DNA of 64,000 nt from Patiria pectinifera (Eukaryota > Echinodermata > Asteroidea > Valvatida > Asterinidae): assembly GCA_029964075.1 (NCBI GenBank), contig CM057147.1, forward strand, positions 17,567,513-17,631,512, written 5' to 3'. Numbering within the stretch: the stretch's first letter is position 1; each line of letters opens with the position of its first letter. Both the position numbers and the translations under genes were made by a program. Under the pieces are notes generated by a model, which worked only from the letters and a program-made list of their open reading frames with translations, ran no database searches and had not been told where the DNA came from. Shown piece after piece: positions 41,241 to 52,027 of the stretch.

Positions 41241-41888
41241 CGATACTTCCACTACCTTGAGACGCAAACCACCTGTACTATTAGATGGAGATTGGAGAAT
41301 CTATTAAGAAGAAATATGATACCGAGATCTCTTGATTCGGTTGAGTAGTTTTTGCTGCAGAACCTATTTTGTGAGGCACACTGTATCTTTCACGGGGGGG
41401 GGGGGAGGGGATTATTACGTAACAGTATTATTAATCCCTCATTCCAATTACAATGTATAATATGTAAGTCTTAATTCGCGGGCACAGTTTAGTAATTCAA
41501 CATGTTCAACAGGACAAAATGACAGTAGTATGTTGGGTCTTCATCGGACAAGACAACAGAATTTTATGCACAAAGACAATGGACTCATTTGCATATCAAT
41601 GAAACTAATTAGCATATCGATGGATGATGTTAGCATAATAAAAGAGCGCATGGGCGTATGTAAGTTTTACCGGACAAGGGATGGGTCTAAAAAATGTATT
41701 GGACAAAGGGGGCAGCCCACCCCGCTAGATGGAATAGTGGACAGAGGAAGACCTGAACCGGAATAGCGAACAAAGGGAGACTTGAGCCGGATTATCGGAC
41801 AAAGATGAATGTCAAACGTTTGAAATGACCATGACTATCATTTGTATTCATTCAAATTAGTGTGCCAACAGTGAATAATAAAAGCAAA

Positions 41889-42092
41889 ATGCAGGCCACA
41901 CCAACAGAGCGCCAATTAAGCCGACTAGCTGGAAATCTTGTGAAAAAATGTTTTTACTCTGGTAAAAATGGAGAGTGCGAGCGACCTTGGGAGAAGTTAA
42001 TGATGAATCTCGGTCTATCAAGAGCCGCTATGTATAGACATTTAGAGGAAAACAAATTTTGTGAATGGGGGCAATGTTTTAACGCACTTATA
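41889..42092 (+). pseudogene. Death-domain-like coding segment, left arm
   Basis: The frame from 41889 gives MQATPTERQLSRLAGNLV, a charged loop, PWEKLMMNLGLSRAAMYRHL, and FNALI, where it runs into the minisatellite. Helix pattern, the W..L...LGLS core and spacing match the first four helices of a Death domain (Death-fold adaptor superfamily, protein-protein contacts in apoptosis and innate signalling). The right-arm copy at 51258-51499 supplies the remaining helix. The domain call is from pattern recognition and needs a profile search. This copy is 3'-truncated. Confidence 0.6.
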
Positions 42093-42600
42093 GATTTACT
42101 CACTTACTCATTTCGTTACTCATTTACTCATTTGACTAAATGATGAGTGATGATGAGTAACGAAATGAGTAAATGAGTAACGAAATGAGTAAATGAGTAA
42201 CGAAATGAGTAAATGAGTAACGAACTGAGTAAATGAGTAAAGAAATGAGTAAATGGGTAACCAAATGAGTAATCAAATGAGTAGCAAATGAGTGAATGAG
42301 TAACGAACTGAGTAAATGTGTAACGAAATGAGTGGCAAATGAGTGAATGAGTAACGAACTGAGTAAATGAGTTGCAAATGAGTAAATGAGTAATCAAATG
42401 AGTAGCAAATGAGTGAATGAGTAATCAAATGAGTAGCAAATGAGTGAATGAGTAGCAAATGAGTAACCAAATTGTGACGAAATGAGTAACCAAATGAGTA
42501 GCAAATGAGTGGATGAGTAACGAAATGAGTAAATGAGTAACAATCTGAGTAAATGAGTAACGAAATGAGTAAATGAGTAACGAAATGAATAACCAAATAA
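42093..42600. repeat. GAGTAAATGAGTAACGAA minisatellite
   Basis: About 30 imperfect units of ATGAGTAA/ATGAGTAACGAA. The first 50 bp are the reverse complement (TTACTCATTTCG) of the rest, forming a foldback start. It abuts and truncates the left Death-domain segment. Absence of stops on the minus strand creates spurious long frames. Confidence 0.92.
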
Positions 42601-42666
42601 GTAGATATATATTAAATGATTTCATCCGTTCCTTAACATTCGGAGAATAACCTTCAAAGCTTCAAC

Positions 42667-43317
42667 ATGAATACTATTTCTGCAGTCAAACCCTATGCTT
42701 GTCACCAGTGTGACAAACGCTTTGGACGGAGATTAACCTCTTGAGACATACCGAAAATGCACATGCTGAAGATGAATCCGACATAGACGAAGTTGAGGTG
42801 GATAATTCTGAACCTGAATTTAAAAGCAGTAGATTTGAAGATCCGGAAATGGAAAACTATGAAACTGAATCTACGTATGATGAAGACGAAGATCTTGATG
42901 AATCATCTGATGAAGATGAGTCTAGTTCTGATTTGGAAGACAATGCAGCCTATTTAAACTGGTTGGGAGAGGCAAAAGAAGCGATTGATGAGATGTGGAG
43001 TGAAAAACATGAAAAGTACATCAACGAGGGCATGAGTGAAGATCAGGCCACGGAAAAGGCCAACAGGAAGACCTTGTGGGCAGTCAAGCGAATATTTTTC
43101 AACAAATACAAAGATTTTTTTGTCAAGTTACATACATCTGAAAGATAATGATACTCATCAAGAAATTGTGGACGAGATCGAAGACAGAGTCAATCATTCC
43201 GGTATTCTACTGCCCACGGTTGTCAGCCGGGTCATATCTAAACACCAGGCCAAATTTGACGGCCTGTTCCATCAATTAGATGAAGATGACGTTAACAAGG
43301 AAGACAGTGACGATTAA
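42667..43317 (+). pseudogene. C2H2 zinc finger plus acidic protein, frameshifted
   Basis: The start at 42667 gives MNTISAVKPYACHQCDKRF, the first half of a C2H2 finger. Its His half (LRHTENAH) lies one frame over at 42741, so a single-base indel breaks the finger. A long Asp/Glu-rich linker follows (42770-42950), then a helical region with NWLGEAKEAIDEMW and EGMSEDQATEKA. A second break at about 43128, where ACAT is duplicated, moves the remaining ~60 codons to another frame, ending in an acidic tail at 43317. I recall similar uncharacterised C2H2-acidic proteins from repeat-rich invertebrate genomes but cannot name a family. Function is unknown; it may be DNA-binding and element-encoded. Confidence 0.6.
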
Positions 43318-44045
43318 AGACTAGTCAACGTTACATTAAGATCACTGATGATTTAATTGCAAAGAATACATTTAAAAACAAATTTAAAAAACACACGAGT
43401 GTTTCATTGACAAATGACGTCAATAAAGCAATAATGTTATCATGTATACACTTTCTGCAGTTGTATTTTTCTTTGTTGGTGTTGTCTTACAGTTAAACAA
43501 TTGGGAAAGACCTACTGTCAAGCAGTCATATAATTAGTGTTTGGACACGCCCTGTCAATAATCCCCTAAATGTTTACGGTCTTTAATGCTTCATGTATGG
43601 CTTTATCACGCACCGTGTCCAACTTTGGGACTTTGTTGGGGTAAAAAAAGTTAGTTGCCTTATGACACTCTAAATCTTCAATATAAAATAGAAGTACATA
43701 CTATTGCTTTAACACAAAAAGACCTAGTTACATATATATCCTTGATTTTGTAAACAAGTCCGGCACGGTGGTACACTGGTTCGGTGCATTCCTGTACAGA
43801 CAACGGTAAAGGGGTATTAAGGCTTGAAATCATGTTTAGTCAGTCAACTTCATTGACTTCTTTCACGTGCAGATTTTTGAAGCTCCCGCACATGCCGTGC
43901 GCTGCCAATTAAGTCCCATTGTCCAATAAAGGGAGTCAGCGTTCACTACTGTTGCGTAACTCCTGGCAATCGATATTTAGAACGCTCAATAATCCATCCC
44001 CCACTGTACATGCAGGTATAGTTCAGTCGGTGAAAGATAATCGAT
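43318..44045. other. No gene seen
   Basis: 3' flank of the broken zinc-finger ORF. AATAAA at 43422-43427 could serve as its poly(A) signal. Nothing else is recognised. Confidence 0.4.
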
Positions 44046-44050
44046 ATAAT

Positions 44051-46462
44051 CAGGCGCGGATCCAGGGGAGGGCCGCGGGGGCACGTGCCCCCCGTCAAAT
44101 TTGAGTCAAAAAAAAAAAAAGAATAGAAGGGGGAAAAAGAGGGCGCCGTTATTAAACACGAGTCTGCAAACATTGCGTACTCGAGAAGCTTCGAAATAAA
44201 CCGCGATCCCATCGTACGTACCCCGTACCGTACTACTAGTACGTACGTATTACCCTGCACATGCCGTTATTAAATGCGATTCATACGAACGTATACACGA
44301 TTTATTCTCTACGAACATGCAGCTTTATGTGCGCGACAAACACACGTTGCGCAGTGCTCTTTGGACCACACCATTGGTCAAGGGTGTGTTTTAGTAAGAA
44401 CAATTTGCCAGCAGTTCCACGCGCTTTTGAATTACAAATTATACTTTTTTCACGGAGTCCAAAACATGCCCTTGTTTTAAATTGACTTCTTCAACGTCAC
44501 GTCATCATATAATTTTCGTTAAGACTTTATTCGAGAAACGATGTAAAACCCTGAAAAATTGAAACACCCCTGAAGGTCATGGATCCGTCCATAAAACTTT
44601 TTTTTTAACGAAGAAAGTTGAGATCCAAAAGTTGGGTTTTGACGTTACTACGCGTTGCAGAAAATATAAATCTGATAAGTTTGGTACATAAAAGAGATTT
44701 GTTTGTCTGAGGACAAAAACAATCAGCAGTTATTGCCCAAAGGCAAGTTTTAGCACTCGAGACATGCTCTTGCAAGCTAGACGGAACGCAAGTGTGTTGC
44801 TTTTTGAATGGCAAGCGAGATAAATTTGATCGTAGTTCGCCGGTGGCGACGCGGGCCGGCATCCGTACCGGGCCGGGAGGTATTCACCTATTCCCGATGT
44901 CTATTTCTCAATGTTATCATCAACAATTATTTACTGTAATTTTTTTTTAAATAATTAATGACGAATCCACCTTCAAAATTGTACCATGTGGAAATTGCAA
45001 TCATGGCGCCGAAAGACCCGATGTCTATTATAATGTAAAGACCAGACGCAGTGTCTCACACAATGTCTTGCTGCGCCGCCGATCTGCCGATGGTTTATTT
45101 ACAAATACATGCACGTGTAATAGGCCCTGTTCTTGAAATTGAAACTGGACTGAATTAAAAGAACATTTCTTTAAAATGTTTGGGCTTTTTACATCATGCA
45201 AAAAAGAGGGAGAAACTTGGATGACCGTATGATTAATTTCTGTAGTCATGAGATAAAACTGAGCTGTGAAGTTACAATGCAGGCTAATTGCTCCTCTGTT
45301 TTAGTTTGATTAAATTACACTAATTCTAAACTTGAATTCAATTAACATGTTCAAGCGGTTTCTTCTTGTTGATAAACTGAAAATTTCAACTTGAAACAAA
45401 ACATTAGAAAGCATCCTTACACCAGTTTACAAACTAAGTTTTTACAATTCCTTTTTCAAAAATATAATGCACGAAGACATGCAGACGAAAATACATGGTA
45501 TGAAGTGAAGAACAGAAGAAACTGAGAAGGCTTGTAAAAGCAAGATTGTATTTTAATCAATGAAAAAAATCTTATAATCTTAAAACAATTTACTCAAATA
45601 ACTCCGGAGAAGAGGGGCCAGGAATTGCCTCAGATTGCACCACAGAGCATCTAGAATCCAAAATTTCCCGGGGCCCTTAAGCGGGCCCCGGACCCCACGC
45701 CGAAAGATGATCGCGCTCCGCACTGGTCTTCGGAAAGATGCCCTATACTCATCCTTGCAAGATACAATTCTTTTTCAAAAATAAGCACGGAAATAACTAT
45801 GCAGACGAAAATGTTTGGATATACAAGTGAAGAACAGAAGAAACTGAAAAGGCTTGTAAACGCAAGAGTATATTATAAACCAATGAACAACATCCTTATA
45901 ATCTTAAAACGTTTTGCTCAAATAACTCAGGGTCCGGTAAAAAGGGCAAGGAATCCCCTCAGAATACACAACAGAGCATCTAGAATTCTAAATTTTCCGG
46001 GGCCCTTAAGTGGGCCCCGGACCCCACGCAGTAAGACAGGCGTAATCCACCCTCGCATTAGTCCTCGGAGCAAATGCCACAACACATCGTTGCAACAGTT
46101 TACAAAACGAAGTCAATACAATTCCTTTTCCAAAATAAAAAGCAAGAAAATATAAAGACGTAAAATGTTTTCGACTTTCAAGCACACAGTAACTTAAAAA
46201 TTGTAAAAGTAAGAGTATGTTTTACAAAAATCATTAAAATCTTAAACACTTTTGCTCAACTAATTCAGGGGAAAGGAGCCAGGAATCGCCTCAGATTGCA
46301 CCACAGAGAATCTAGAATCCAAAATGTCCGGGGCCCTTAAACGGGACCCCGGACCCCACGCCGTAAGGGTATCGCGCCCCGCGCTTGCATTAGTTCTCGG
46401 AGCAAATAATTTTGCTCCAACAGTGTGCCCTCCGTCCAAAAAAAATCCTGGATCCGCGCCTG
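44051..46462. mobile_element. 2.4-kb element with GCGGATCC termini
   Basis: It starts CAGGCGCGGATCCAGG and ends CCTGGATCCGCGCCTG, with ATAAT directly repeated at 44046-44050 and 46463-46467. Same termini and duplication length as the 117-bp and 356-bp elements, so it may be a longer family member. The interior has no clear transposase. A minus-strand frame at 44605-44862 is unrecognised. The right half is a three-unit tandem array. Confidence 0.8.
45475..46437 (+). repeat. Tandem repeat, ~320-355-bp unit, three copies
   Basis: Units start near 45481, 45801 and 46157. Each holds 'GAAGAACAGAAGAAACTGA'-like sequence, 'CAGAGCATCTAGAAT', and the near-palindrome GGGGCCCTTAAGCGGGCCCC (exact in unit 1, one or more changes in units 2 and 3). 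Confidence 0.88.
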
Positions 46463-46552
46463 ATAATGAACACGTCGTGAAAGAATTACGTCTTTAGCTA
46501 TTAGGGAAACAGCGCTATCTGATCGGACGGTGTAAATATACAATGTGTACAT

Positions 46553-49500
46553 TAGTGGAGCTGCTTAGGTCCATATTTTTGGCCAAAATCGTGCACTTTG
46601 TGTTAAAAGCATGAAATTTGGCATGTGGGGTCAAAATGGGCTAGAAATCATTTTAAGATCGGGACCCATCCTGGATTTTGCCCATTTTGGGGGCGGAGCT
46701 TGATTTTTTAAAAAGGGGGCGCAAACTATAAAAACTGTATTTAACATCCATTTCCCTCATTTTTTCTTTGCGTTGAAGTAAACTAAAACATAAAATAAGA
46801 CATTCCAGCTTGTTAACACCTGTTATTTTCCACCCATTTTGTGGGCGTGGCCTAAATGTGTAAAAGAGGCGGTATATATAAGCAGTTTGGTTCAAATATG
46901 GAAAATACCATTCAGTTTGGTGGTAAAATCTTGTAAATATGCATGTTTAGTCGAAATGAGCTGAAAGTCATTTTAAGGGATGGACCCATCTTGGATCTTG
47001 CCCATTTTGGGGGCGGAGCTTGATCAGTTACAAAGGGGAGTGCAAATAAATACAAATTTAGAAAAATTGTATTTAACATCCATTTTCCTTTGTTCTTCAT
47101 GCTTTTAAATACACAGAGACATGATAAAAAAATTCAAACATTCTAACACTTGTTATTTTTTGTGGGCGTGGCCTAAATATGAAAAGGAGGCCGCACATTA
47201 AAGCAGCTTCATTCAAACGAGGGAAAATGCAGCACTTTTGCTGGTAAAACACAAATTCTGCATTGGTTAACTATGTTTGCCATACACTGTAAAGTAAAGA
47301 TAAGTTTAAAAGGTTGCAAGGATTTTGCCCTGTTAGGGGTGGAGCTACATTTTAAAGTAGAGGGCTGAATATTCGCATAGAAAGGTAAAAGGTGGTAATA
47401 TTTCTGTGGTCATATTTCTACTGGGTATACTCACTCAAAGTGGTTTCATGTCCTTAGATGTACTGGAACATACAGCCTAGGCCAAAAAATAGTTCTGCTT
47501 CCGATAACATGGCATTTGAAAATAGGGTAGGAAGGTAAGTGCATTCTTTTTGTGTTGATCATATGTAGGTGTCTGTGTGTAGTCCATGGTAAAAGGTGGT
47601 AATTGATGGTTTTTATTTAATTTTTTCATTGTTCCCAAAACAAAATTAGGGTAGGGGCTGTCAAAATAGGGTAGGTGGGGTAACCGGAAGCAGAATCATT
47701 ATTTTTTGGCCCTATGTGTAAATATTGAAGCAATTGCCAAGTCAGAGTCAATGGCTGTGGATTCTCTCTTCATTGATAGGACTACAGTCTATTGAAAGTT
47801 AACCCTATCACTATCAGGACTGGGGTGTTTTGTATCTGCTTAAGACCGAATTGCTGTTCCCCCTCACTGATCCCCCATTGTAATTCCTTTTTTTTTCTCT
47901 CGTGATTTTCCTAATATTTGGCATGAATGTTGGTTGGCCAGTACTGTATATGATGTCATTTTGGTAGATACCACATTTAGAGTGCACTTTCGAAATCCAC
48001 CCCATCTAATTCCATTTTGTTTTACAAACACCCACATGAATTCAAAACGTCTGCGCCCAGAACGCTTTTCTGCGCAAAAAAGTGAGGAGTTAGCGTTCTG
48101 GTGATTTCATATAGCTCTGTGGGTACAACCCGATCACAATTTTGAAATGGTCACAATTTTTCTTTTGCCCTTATGTATACTTTTATTTTTTTTCAAGATG
48201 ATGCTCCGCTTCTTTTCTTCTAAACAGTACCTTGTAACATGAAACTTTGAACAAAAATTAACCCTTATCCAACATCTTCAAAAGTGACCATCGCTTGAAC
48301 GAAGTCTTGAACAAAATAAAACCCACGTTGATATTTTGTAATCAAAATGAAAGAGCCCCCCCCCCCCGCAGCACGTCCTAGAAAGTTGGACTTTATAAAA
48401 ACCATTCATCAAACTTTTACCAAACTTACCCTTGCATATTCTATGGAAAAAAACGTAAAATTATGAATTTGTGAGGTTTTAGGAGCGTGACGTCATCAAA
48501 CCGGAAGTTGTCATAGGGAGAATTAGAAAATGATTAGACCCGTAGACCCTTAGACCCTTAAAGTCTCACATGTATGTTAAAGTTTTGGAATTTCTCTCGT
48601 TTCCTAAATATTTGCCCAAATTCCATAAAACTTGGACACAAGGGTCATTGGGTAGCAAAGATAATGTGCGATATATTTTAGATCAAATGTCATGGGTCAA
48701 CGGTCAACTGAGGTTAATCATGATGTAATTAACAGTTTTGGGGGAAAGCTAACAACATTCTACATGCTTTCATGGATTTTGATGAAACTTAGATGCAGTG
48801 ACCCTTGGGTGCATGAGAAGACACAATTCTTCATGGAATTACTGAGGTCAAAGGTCATCTAGGGCTCATTAGAGGTCATTGTTCAAATATGCTTCAAATG
48901 TTTCTTTGTCTAGTACAGAATTTGATGGATTATAATGTTACTTAGAAGTTGGATGGATTGATCTTTTGGTTGGGGTTCATCACAACTCTTCCAAAATTGG
49001 AGGTCAAAAGTCATGTAGGGGTCATTTGAGGTTGTTGTTTAAAAATGCACAAAATGTCAAGAACTTTTTTTTTAAGAACACAAAATAGGTGACACATGCG
49101 ATCCACAGATATAAGTCTTGTATTAATTCGTATCAAGTGACAATGTTCGTGGCACAAATAATGGCACAAATAATGTTATCAGCTACATTGTTGCTGTGAC
49201 GTAAACAGACTGTGCTTTCATTACATACATTTACTCATTCCTACATGTAGTTTGTATATTTTGGAATTGTTTATCAAAGTGCAAGCACATTTTTAAGAAG
49301 CTACATAATTTCTCAAAAATATTAATCCCACCTTTTCAAACATCAAGATATTACTTTCCAAGTCCAAACATCCATATGATATAAATCCAGCAGTACACAC
49401 TGCAAGGAATTGACGTATACTCTGCGCATATTTTTTAAAATTATTTTCATGTATACATGCCCATATATACATGAAAAGCACTTGCAAAAATAGGTGAAGT

Positions 49501-50457
49501 CCACCGTTGCCGCCCCCCCCCCCCCGGTGATGCCAGAAGTGTTTACAAACAAGGAAATGCCGCAGCTGCTGTAACCTACATGTATGTTACTTGTAGCCAA
49601 TCACACTAATTTAAATATGAAATATTTAATCTTCTAGAATATTCAACCCCTACTTTAAATTGTAGCTCCACCCCTAAAAAGGTAAAACCTTGCAACCATT
49701 TCAAACTGATCTTTACAGTGTATGGCAAACATAGTTAACCAATGCAGAATTTGTGTTTTACCAGCAAAAGTGCTCATTTTCCCTCGTTTGAATGAAGCTG
49801 TTTAATGTGCGGCCCCCTTTTCATATTTAGGCCACGCCCACAAAAGGGTACAAAATAACAAGTGTTAGAATGTTTGATTTTTTTTTATCATGTCTCTGTG
49901 TATTTAAAAGCATGAAGAACTAAGGAAAATGGATGTTAAATACAGTTTTTCTAAATTTAAATTTGTTTGCACTCCCCTTTTTAACCGATCAAACTCCGCC
50001 CCCAAAATGGGCAAGATCTCAAATGGATCCACGTCTTAAAATGATTTTCAGCCCATTTCGACTAAACATGCTGATTTTTAAGATTTTACCACCAAACTGA
50101 ACGGTATTTTCCATATTTGAACCAAACTGCTAATATATACCGCCTCTTTTACACATTTAGGCCATGCCCACAAAATGGGTGGAAAATGACAGGCCCTAAA
50201 TTCCTAGAATGTCCTATTTTATGTTGAAGTTTATTTTCAAAGCATAGAAAAACTAGAAAATGGATGTTAAGTACAGTTTTTATGAGTTTTTATTGTTTGC
50301 AAACCCCTTTTTCAAAAAATCAAGCTCCGCCCCCAAAATGGGCAAAATCCAGGATGGGTCCCGATCTTAAAATGATTTCTAGCCCATTTTGACCCAGCAT
50401 ACCAAATTTCATGCTTTTACCACAAAGTGCACGATTTTTCGCTTAGCAGCTCCACTA
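46553..50457. mobile_element. Foldback element FB3 (3905 bp)
   Basis: Outer termini TAGTGGAGCTGCT (46553) and its complement (ending 50457) bound ~800-bp inverted arms (46553-47352 and 49655-50457). Within each arm a ~320-bp unit repeats, marked by GGGGGCGGAGCTTGAT and GTGGGCGTGGCCTAAAT. The 2.3-kb loop carries repeated 'GGTCAAAGGTCAT' phrases (48840-49015) and no gene. FB3 lies inside the larger inverted-repeat structure. A short CAT duplication is possible at the flanks. Confidence 0.82.
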
Positions 50458-50590
50458 CATGTAGGATGCAGTCACGTGTACATACTGTACACACCGTACC
50501 GAGTGAGCCGACTCTGAAAGTTTGTACAATTTTCTACGACCACCGCACACAGATACGTACATATATGGTTCTGGTGGTAATGTGGAAGAA

Positions 50591-50745
50591 TACAGTCGCC
50601 TCTCTTTATAACAAGGTCGATGGGACCATAGAGCTAAAGGACAGCGAAACAAAGAAACACAAAGAGAACCTGAGATTTGTGACCTCCGTCAGAATTTGCT
50701 CTTTATAAGCAGAACCTCTTTATAATATAATGAAAGTCGACTGTA
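50591..50745. mobile_element. 155-bp pogo/Tigger-like MITE
   Basis: Starts TACAGTCGCCTCTCTTTATAA and ends TTATAATATAATGAAAGTCGACTGTA-like sequence. The termini are inverted (CAGTCG...CGACTG) and bounded by TA on both sides, as in Tc1/mariner-pogo elements. Confidence 0.7.
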
Positions 50746-51250
50746 TTGTGCAATTGTTATTGCACCTGGATAACACACACGATATGACAAGGCAAATATC
50801 GGTGCAGAAGCACGGAGTTATTTATTTGCTCCATGATCGGTGCGGTCATCGAGGGGTGATCGACCATCGGTCTCTGTATAGAACGCATGGATTCATTAGC
50901 TCTCTGATCTATTATTAACACAATTCCTCCATGGTTAAAACAATCATCGGACTATACCGTGCAAGTACGCTGTTCACCGGTGAGTGTTTGTTTACTACAA
51001 ATACCTAAATTAATTTTTTCAAACTTTTTTAAAACTTGACTAGAAGAAACTCTTGTATGTCTGTACACGTACACGAACTTGTCCGTGTGGATTGCACAAT
51101 GGACTACCGGGATCAGTCATTCGCAACAAATCTTAAGGGTTGTTCCATTCTAGACGATGTTCGCCGTACTCGATAATAATTTACTAAAAGATAAATTCTT
51201 CAATTAGACAATCATGCATAATTGTTTCTTTCTTTCTTTCTTTTTTGGAA
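50746..51250. other. No gene seen
   Basis: Contains a short hairpin near 50840-50870 (GGTGCGGTCATCG / CGACCATCGG) and a (TTTC)n tract at 51222-51242. Confidence 0.4.
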
Positions 51251-51257
51251 GGGGGGA

Positions 51258-51499
51258 AGGGTAATGGTTTACTGCAGCAAAAATTGTAAGCGTTATGATC
51301 AATACCGCAAAATCGACAGGCATTCAATAATAGTTCAATCGTGGCATTTTTATATTCGCGTCGTTTCCACTCTATAAGTGCGTTAAAACTCGCACTCGCA
51401 CTCGCACTCGCACTCTCCATTTTTACCAGAGTAAAAACATTTTTTCACAAGATTTCCAGCTAGTCGGCTTAATTGGCGCTCTGTTGGTGTGGCCTGCAT
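51258..51499 (-). pseudogene. Death-domain-like coding segment, right arm
   Basis: From 51499 the minus strand repeats the MQATPTERQLSRL start seen in the left arm. It then enters an (AGTGCG)n tract and a stop. In another frame, 51387-51258 encodes FNALIEWKRREYKNATIELL and a Cys-rich end (CRFCGIDHNAYNFCC). WK...NAT..LL is the classic last-helix signature of Death domains. The middle of the domain, present in the left arm, is missing here, so the copy is broken. Whether the Cys/His-rich tail binds metal is unknown. Confidence 0.6.
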
Positions 51500-52027
51500 T
51501 TTGCTTTTATTATTCACTGTTTGCACACTGCTTTGAATGAATACAAATGATAGTCTTGGTGTCCGATAATCCGGCTCAAGTCTCCCTTTGTTCGCTATTC
51601 TGGTTCAGGTCTTCCTCTGTCCGCTATTCCATCTAGCGGGGTGGGCTGCCCCCTTTGTCCAATACATTTTTTAGACCCATCCTTTGTCCGGTAAACCTTA
51701 CATACGCCCATGCGCTCTTTTATTATGCTAACATCATCCATCCATATGCTAATTAATTTTATTGATACGCAAATGAGTCCATTGTCTTTATGCATTATGC
51801 ATAAAATTATTTTGTCTTGTCCGATGAAGACCCAACACACTACTAAATGACTCCCGACTTTGTTTCACAAAATAGGCTCTAGAACAAAAACTACTGGACC
51901 GAATCAGGCGATCTTCCTACCTTTTTACTTTTATCACAATTTCCCATGCATTGGTATAGAGGTTGTTTGAGTTTCAGGGTAGCGAAAGTACGTAGTTTTC
52001 TTCTTTTTTTTTGGGCCACCCTGTATA

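Follow-up and report, generated by a model that had tools for sequence, protein, structure and literature searches.

A CRADD-like death-domain gene of Patiria pectinifera Polintons and its fragments in the inverted repeats of a short Polinton-derived element

Polintons (Mavericks) of the sea star Patiria pectinifera carry an inward-reading open reading frame (ORF) of ~100–131 aa, essentially one death domain, between a terminus and the integrase module. The window, the whole 64 000-nucleotide stretch analysed here (contig CM057147.1, positions 17,567,513 to 17,631,512), contains a short element with fragments of the same gene in both of its arms. The initial annotation had inferred a Death domain in transposon inverted termini, and this is supported; two outcomes named there as refuting it, the lack of a significant Death-fold profile hit and an arm that never accompanies the domain in genome copies, were both checked and neither applies. 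Beyond that first reading, the element has its origin in a Polinton/Maverick, of which it is a short form, and autonomous Polintons count the Death ORF among their genes.

The two arms form the terminal inverted repeats of a single transposed element (Table 1). They pair without gaps in two blocks, 41566–41801 with 51560–51795 (236 nt, 96%) and 41828–41981 with 51407–51560 (154 nt, 97%), and the window has two copies of a 33-base terminus, one at 41524 (+) and one at 51844 (−), against none expected (100 shuffles). The inverted arms were thus correctly read as element termini and the repeat is real, but its true limits lie outside the 41889–51499 first assigned to it. The terminal motif is exactly (AGT)2//(ACT)2, with AGTAGT at 41524 and ACTACT ending at 51844, and a flush 7-base duplication, AAATGAC, flanks the element (41517–41523 and 51845–51851). 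Section 7 of PMC8097293 gives (AGT)2//(ACT)2 as the ends of vertebrate Mavericks. The window holds no match to the integrase, the protease, the capsid candidate or two neighbouring ORFs, and no PolB match is listed there; therefore, the element is a non-autonomous derivative and not a Polinton.

Table 1. Features of the window element (positions in the window)
Feature	Position	Strand	Remark
Complete Polinton-derived, non-autonomous element, enlarged by nested insertions	41524..51844	.	Termini AGTAGT...ACTACT read directly
Left terminal inverted repeat	41524..42094	+	Inner boundary inside Death ORF near codon 70
Left Death-ORF copy	41889..42143	+	Codons 1 to ~70; tandem-array sequence follows, with a stop
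Tandem array, TGAGT-type ~20-bp units	42096..42607	+	Adjoins left repeat
Broken C2H2 zinc-finger plus acidic ORF	42729..43353	+	~245–259 aa in relatives
Nested insertion	44056..46465	.	~330-bp repeat units inside; flanks contiguous or nearly so in related copies
Second nested insertion	46550..50473	.	Own long inverted repeats
Right Death-ORF copy, 3′ piece	51187..51444	−	Other frame, codons ~65–100, FNALIEWKRREYKNATIELL
Right Death-ORF copy, 5′ piece	51386..51499	−	Codons 1 to ~29; GAGTGC repeat follows
Right terminal inverted repeat (aligned part)	51407..51844	−	

The reading of the 10.3-kb element as a single original unit was rejected, because nine further copies with two ends measure 4.1–6.0 kb and the excess consists of two later insertions amounting to ~6.3 kb. 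A third candidate insertion, 50593–50743, was also rejected. It is present in L011, L013, L014 and, in part, L016, and missing in L009, L010, L012, L015, L017 and L021; kept in some copies and missing in others, it is therefore probably an old part that some have lost. The zinc-finger ORF of the window corresponds to C19:17610241-17610865, and in the relative P0004 the zf-C2H2 profile scores 22.5 bits, below the cut-off of 25.2. The TGAGT-type array adjoins one repeat in related copies too.

Both arms share the inward-reading start that had been noted earlier, with ATGs at 41889 (+) and 51499 (−). The left frame keeps the reported LGLS helix, reaching LGLSRAAMYRH and then FNALI before it enters the tandem array and a stop. 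The right frame reads MQATPTERQLSRLAGNLVKKCFYSGKNGEC and runs into the GAGTGC repeat; FNALIEWKRREYKNATIELL follows in a different frame, the middle of the copy having been lost to this short repeat. The proposal that each copy was damaged differently does not hold for the left copy. Truncation of one copy near codon 70 is common to nine of 11 two-ended copies (the window, L009–L014, L016 and L020, with L015 and L017 departing from the pattern); thus, the left copy was not separately damaged but is cut by the element's design. By itself, the left fragment gives no Pfam Death match, the right 5′ piece no Pfam match, and the right 3′ piece 15.8 bits, under the cut-off of 22.6. Neither window fragment passes alone; the significance of the assignment comes from family members without internal stops.

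In most short elements with two ends, a zinc-finger ORF core lies between ends that both hold the first part of the gene, and one of these ends has the gene in full, though often broken. An arm together with the domain is present in 19 of the 20 related loci fetched; L023, an interior piece, has none. The query used to select these loci contained part of the Death ORF. Flush, exact 6-bp target duplications flank six of the 12 copies with both ends (L009–L013 and L020), and the window copy has its flush 7-base repeat; the duplications are shifted or one base off in L014, L015, L017 and L026, and L024 has none. Among the fetched short-element loci, the ORF is whole only in L010 and L014, and in L017 it is open over codons 8–101. 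Three loci with a window-type end and a different interior (L018, L019 and L028) gave no match to five core-gene queries. These five queries gave 0 matches in the window and L009–L066, and an autonomous element with exactly the ends of the window family was not found; L046 comes nearest, its similarity at the terminus being short (score 40 versus a maximum of 25 in 500 shuffles). An ORF beside L016 (P0005) was considered as a Polinton integrase end and rejected, as it has no Pfam support and occurs in 150 scored copies at 85–100% identity.

A Death ORF lies 4–16 kb from PolB in 12 of 18 PolB clusters, 11 of them in the same order and orientation, with the Death ORF on the opposite strand 7.1–15.7 kb downstream of PolB; in the other it lies 4.1 kb upstream. 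The chance of linkage is ~0.007 per cluster [Poisson P(≥12) 5e-20], with 112 of 113 Death matches entered and all 40 PolB matches merged into the 18 clusters. Within 20 kb, 13 clusters have a match and five have none; at C7:14904961 the sole match is of fragment type, at a distance of 19 kb and differently arranged. In five of eight fetched pieces, two of them PolB-linked (L061 and L065), the Death ORF sits 597–746 bp inside the terminus. The linked element on C6 contains a PolB of the protein-primed type (PF03175, over cut-off, in an open frame of 1454 aa), an integrase with rve (58.6 bits) and Chromo (37.4 bits) domains, both over cut-off, and an adenovirus-type cysteine protease [Peptidase_C5 (PF00770), 26.1 bits, cut-off 21.3]. 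Immediately ahead of the protease lies an open frame of 384 aa, a candidate for the double jelly-roll capsid protein, that matches nothing in Pfam and nothing informative in the PDB. A genome-wide Peptidase_C5 scan returned 0 matches, although the C6 protease passes the cut-off; thus, the scan missed at least one.

The Death-domain assignment made from the window letters is borne out by the family: each of the 12 ORFs in alignment A1 exceeds the gathering score for Pfam Death (PF00531), 22.6 bits (range 23.0–37.9), with L063 (23.0) and L065 (25.3) nearest to it. These 12, also used for the selection pairs, were chosen as those reading without an internal stop. Left aside were L059 (frame change near the C-terminus), L060 (masked stretch), broken copies, the open second copies in L048/L052 and L057, L034/L017, and P0003, an open piece of a frameshifted copy that scores 37.5 bits. 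In a profile comparison with the PDB, CRADD scores 9e-11 and the next molecule 6e-4. No other Pfam domain, CARD included, appears in the 12 ORFs at E ≤ 0.01, and several Polinton-end forms have a basic (KRKR-type) N-terminal extension. On these comparisons, the Polinton ORF is a CRADD-like domain and not a CRADD protein. An NCBIfam search with three proteins gave nothing useful, and scans of viral_contigs with the Death alignment and the capsid candidate, and of phages by tblastn, gave no relatives.

A possible source is visible in the same genome. A host locus has a CARD at C21:9880722 and, ~1.2 kb downstream on the same strand, a CRADD-like death-domain frame; the best solved relatives of the CARD are APAF1 and CARD9, with RAIDD at 4e-4. 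Since the host death domain is 52% identical to Polinton copy L046, we infer that an ancestral Polinton captured a CRADD-like death domain without its CARD. The short elements, in turn, look like satellites of Polintons. In L070, positions 1–518 are 99.6% identical to the Polinton end L059 and positions 518–1001 are 92–98% identical to the window family, so that in this one chimera read the interior beside the zinc-finger core is joined to the end of a different Polinton.

The account that we favour, and consider somewhat better than an even bet, is that of a short Polinton-ended element whose fragment-bearing arms moved in trans and whose parent Polintons use the captured domain as a decoy. 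An ancestral Polinton would have taken up the death domain and left the CARD behind. The lone death-domain protein would then bind host death-domain partners, the PIDD–RAIDD–caspase-2 platform being a first guess; as it could not recruit a caspase, cell death would be dampened during Polinton replication. The window element would no longer produce the protein and would be mobilized in trans by Polinton proteins, and its arms may carry a gene fragment because the inverted repeat formed in, or extended inward through, the gene. That the domain is a decoy blocking death signalling is less certain than its capture and is suggested by the domain make-up. A more specific reading, which we put forward only tentatively, holds that the host-derived lone CRADD death domain jams a PIDD–RAIDD–caspase-2 response to Polinton replication, and that a set of satellites exploits these Polintons by fitting one shared zinc-finger core with the ends of the lineage active at the time; use of those ends would explain the death-domain gene pieces in the inverted ends.

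A pro-death or NF-κB-type role is also compatible with a lone death domain.

A lone death domain can, in principle, act as a nucleator or as a cap. The Polinton protein might accordingly signal actively, nucleating a death-domain platform for, e.g., particle release or a change of host state. The FADD, TNFR1 and RIPK1 domains also give weak scores in the PDB comparison, and the genome has at least 150 strong Death matches and therefore many potential partners; however, CRADD leads the other solved domains by a wide margin and no further Pfam domain accompanies the Death match, and we regard active signalling as unlikely.

Codon comparisons show the Death ORF to be under purifying selection between diverged families. 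From the 12 ORFs, 66 pairs were computed, many of the wider ones saturated, and nine were tested for significance. The dN/dS ratio is 0.14 for L062–L061, both PolB-linked and with a dS of 1.6, near saturation; it is 0.44 for L061–L064, 0.36 for L061–L066 and 0.20 for L046–L010 (one-sided p 7e-15 to 9e-4 across the four). The loci L064 and L066 have Polinton-type ends and no PolB match nearby. Two further pairs fit purifying selection (L063–L066, p 8e-7; L046–L048, p 1.4e-5), two are weak (L064–L066, p 0.024; L061–L063, p 0.034), L014–L010 shows no significant constraint (p 0.26), and L055–L057 has a dN/dS of 2.3 on 10 changes. This bears on whether the domain is passive cargo, captured by chance, without a role and spread by lying inside or beside an inverted repeat. 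Most short-element copies do have frameshifts or stops, and a frame change near codon 20–23 recurs in many; therefore, the short elements probably moved without an intact ORF. However, 10 of the 11 PolB-linked matches in the common arrangement have no internal stop (one of the ten spans codons 3–69 only, one holds a masked stretch, and L059 shifts frame near the C-terminus), the position of the gene recurs, and the synonymous excess already points to constraint. Passive carriage is thus distinctly improbable.

Two further readings have little to recommend them. The ORF could be a small AlpA-like helix-turn-helix regulator of the element and the Death match a look-alike: Phage_AlpA matches the LGLSRAAMYRH helix at 14.2–14.8 bits and the N-terminus is KRKR-type in several forms, but the AlpA match is below its cut-off of 21 and covers ~20 residues, whereas the Death match passes in every family ORF, spans both halves and shares its CRADD similarity with the host CARD-plus-death-domain locus, so that this reading is very improbable. 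The short-element families are numerous and have the domain at both ends, which would fit an independent acquisition from the host there, with the Polinton copies secondary. However, several of the forms at Polinton ends have an extra N-terminus and are thus longer, and they are diverse yet constrained; the L070 end, moreover, is nearly identical to that of a Polinton, and we give this reading hardly any credence.

With MITE-like non-autonomous derivatives of DNA transposons, the short elements share inverted repeats of their own, target duplications, a lack of matches to core genes and, presumably, movement in trans. They differ in that their long repeats include part of a viral accessory gene and their interior occurs on more than one kind of Polinton end. 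The likeness to Polintons/Mavericks (adintovirus-type) lies, for the window family, in the AGTAGT//ACTACT ends and 6-bp duplications, and, for the linked autonomous element, in PolB, the rve-chromo integrase and the adenovirus-type protease. Modules on opposite strands, and an accessory region that separates the terminus from the integrase module, likewise agree with section 7 of PMC8097293; here, however, the accessory gene is a CRADD-like death domain, and the window element is without the tested core genes. CRADD/RAIDD is the nearest solved death domain, but its N-terminal CARD is absent from the 12 ORFs. In PMC4457926, a CARD protein of grouper iridovirus, 91 aa long, is described as inhibiting apoptosis. 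It is likewise a small single-domain death-fold protein in a DNA virus; however, it is a CARD and not a death domain, and belongs to another virus group. An iridovirus 'vTRADD' was dropped as an analogue, the protein being a viral TRAF according to PMC3352826. A search of the available library for Polintons together with a death domain found no paper.

Polintons encode capsid genes, although according to PMC8097293 their particles have not been observed. A conserved host-derived cell-death gene would be needed more by an infecting virus than by a quiet transposon, and the finding therefore bears on whether animal Polintons are viruses. With the host locus, the Polinton gene and decaying copies in apparent satellites present in one genome, capture, selection and decay can be compared directly.

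The two arms of the large inverted repeat recognized in the initial annotation belong to one element, of which they are the terminal inverted repeats. The element ends in AGTAGT...ACTACT, the 33-base terminus occurs twice in the window (none expected from 100 shuffles) and AAATGAC is found on either side. The two repeats share 95% identity over aligned columns, or 96–97% in ungapped blocks, and those of each of nine other two-ended copies, which are 4.1–6.0 kb long, share 96–99% in the same kind of alignment. Two segments, 6.3 kb in all, are best read as later insertions; related copies spanning those points are without them, and comparison with these copies shows an original element of about 4 kb.

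Features of the window element, with the order of parts in the short elements
Feature	Position in window	Remarks
Whole element	41524–51844	
Inverted repeat		Left end of element; first ~70 codons of Death ORF inside
Tandem array, TGAGT-type		Next after left inverted repeat
C2H2 plus acidic ORF	42729–43353	After tandem array; ~245–259 aa in relatives
Spacer		Right of C2H2 plus acidic ORF
Remainder of Death ORF		Opposite strand, after spacer, continuing into right repeat
Probable later insertion	44056–46465	
Probable later insertion	46550–50473	Has long inverted repeats of its own, 357 nt at 90% and 135 nt at 96%; internal repeats too
Repeat units	45503–46385	Spacing ~322–332 bp; similar short pieces in fetched loci L015, L021, L022, L023
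151-bp stretch	50593–50743	Present in some related copies, absent from others

Both ends carry parts of a Death ORF, a frame that is essentially one death domain reading inward. Given the order of parts, the ancestral element had a Death ORF of about 103 codons at its right end and only the first part at its left end. The left truncation is structural, because one end is cut near codon 70 in nine of the 11 two-ended loci (the window, L009–L014, L016 and L020); the exceptions are L015 and L017, where the Death ORF extends to codon ~101–103 at both ends. The earlier proposal that each copy was damaged differently therefore fails for the left copy. In the right copy of the window, codons ~30–64 were additionally lost to a GAGTGC repeat and the frame has changed. 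The Death ORF is mostly broken in the short elements; among the fetched loci it is whole in L010 and L014 and open over codons 8–101 in L017.

The assignment to the Pfam Death family (PF00531) holds for intact relatives but not for the window pieces alone: the left piece gives no Death match and the right piece scores 15.8 bits, under the cut-off of 22.6 bits, whereas all 12 ORFs of alignment A1, from relatives without internal stops, exceed it (23.0–37.9 bits). Among solved structures the profile matches the CRADD death domain best (9e-11), followed by ankyrin-3 (6e-4) and FADD (8e-4). A match to the AlpA helix-turn-helix is weak and under its own cut-off. In none of the 12 ORFs does Pfam detect a CARD.

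The same ORF is a gene of autonomous Polintons, recurring near PolB. Genome scans, which score the best candidates only, gave at least 113 Death-ORF and at least 40 PolB matches, and the listed PolB matches merge into 18 clusters. Among the matches listed, 13 of the 18 have a Death-ORF match within 20 kb, where about 0.007 per cluster is expected by chance, and five have none. In 11 clusters PolB is followed, 7.1–15.7 kb downstream, by a Death ORF on the opposite strand; at L046 the two share a strand, with the Death ORF 4.1 kb upstream of PolB. One further cluster has a fragment-type match at 19 kb in a different layout. In small pieces fetched around eight Death ORFs, five of them PolB-linked (L059–L062 and L065), the AGTAGT... 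element end precedes the ATG by 597–746 bp in five (L061 and L063–L066, of which L061 and L065 are PolB-linked); in the L059, L060 and L062 pieces the end is outside the fetched stretch or was not found. For L046 and L055, both from the genome scan, the distance from an AGTAGT end to the ATG is 569 and 479 bp, respectively. In two further pieces, taken from the element on C6 of the genome, the Death-ORF strand also encodes an integrase with rve and chromodomain, a protease of adenovirus type and a PC4-like ORF (34.9 bits), while PolB occupies a 1454-aa frame on the opposite strand. The PC4 (p15)-like ORF (L067:47–640; cut-off 25 bits) has the Death ORF on one side and the integrase on the other. 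Vertebrate Mavericks have two modules on opposite strands, flanked by accessory regions (PMC8097293), and the C6 element agrees on both points; the Death ORF sits in the accessory region adjoining the integrase module.

The short elements resemble Polinton satellites. A second set of genome matches, frequently paired in inverted orientation at a spacing of 4–5.6 kb, covers about residues 3–60 of the Death ORF. At one of these ends, L070, positions 1–518 are 99.6% identical to the Polinton end L059, a stretch that takes in the first ~80 Death-ORF codons of L059; positions 518–1001 are 92–98% identical to the window-family interior. In this case at least, one interior has thus been attached to the ends of more than one Polinton, which explains the presence of a Polinton gene fragment within inverted termini. 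Template switching or recombination could have made the join. The C2H2 plus acidic ORF may be the satellite's own factor; Pfam gives no match for its C-terminal part. Its family, with at least 164 genome matches, falls into several subfamilies, whose identities to P0004, the protein of a relative, are about 93%, 68% and 55%; the matches are often paired in inverted orientation about 1–4 kb apart. L016:6074–6535 is an ORF of another element, for which the best 150 of 728 candidates scored show 85–100% protein identity, most in 340-aa frames.

A host locus on C21 of the genome combines, on one strand, a CARD match (73.5 bits) and, about 1.2 kb downstream of it, a death-domain frame (53.0 bits; best solved relative CRADD, 1e-16) with 52% identity to the Polinton copy L046. 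Judged by distance and strand, the two are probably exons of one gene. We call it CRADD-like on architecture and death domain only, because its CARD is closest to APAF1 and CARD9 (RAIDD, 4e-4). Compared by eye, this frame is the one common to the best 150 of 595 Death candidates and the listed Death-ORF matches. Several Polinton ORFs start at the same point as the host death domain, and a Polinton probably captured that domain alone. At least 150 strong Death matches in the genome, against only 11 CARD matches, point to a large death-domain expansion in the host. Two of the CARD matches lie on opposite strands about 45 kb apart (C21:9835651–9835899 and C21:9880722–9880970), and only one is near the CRADD-like frame among the Death-ORF matches listed.

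Synonymous changes exceed non-synonymous ones between diverged Death ORFs. The dN/dS value is 0.14 for the PolB-linked pair L062–L061, with synonymous sites near saturation (beyond it in many wider pairs), 0.20 for L046–L010, 0.36 for L061–L066 and 0.44 for L061–L064; the one-sided p values of these four range between 7e-15 and 9e-4. Evidence from close pairs is weak or uninformative (L064–L066, p 0.024; L061–L063, p 0.034; L014–L010, p 0.26), and L055–L057 has nine non-synonymous changes and one synonymous.

Among the titles and abstract openings listed, none describes a death domain in Polintons, the founding adintovirus paper lying outside the search; adintovirus with apoptosis gave one paper, on an oyster birnavirus, and neither PMC4028283 nor PMC8097293 has a match to "death" in its main text.

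The death-domain ORF was observed directly, as were its place in the elements, the sequences related to it and a single modular junction. The protein may bind host death-domain partners. It might have an activating role. A small viral death-fold inhibitor has a precedent in the iridovirus CARD (PMC4457926). PDB entry 2OF5 holds a CRADD chain together with that of an LRR-and-death-domain protein, which we take to be PIDD. The CRADD–PIDD complex activates caspase-2. As an inhibitor, a death domain without a CARD could occupy PIDD, and no caspase would be recruited.
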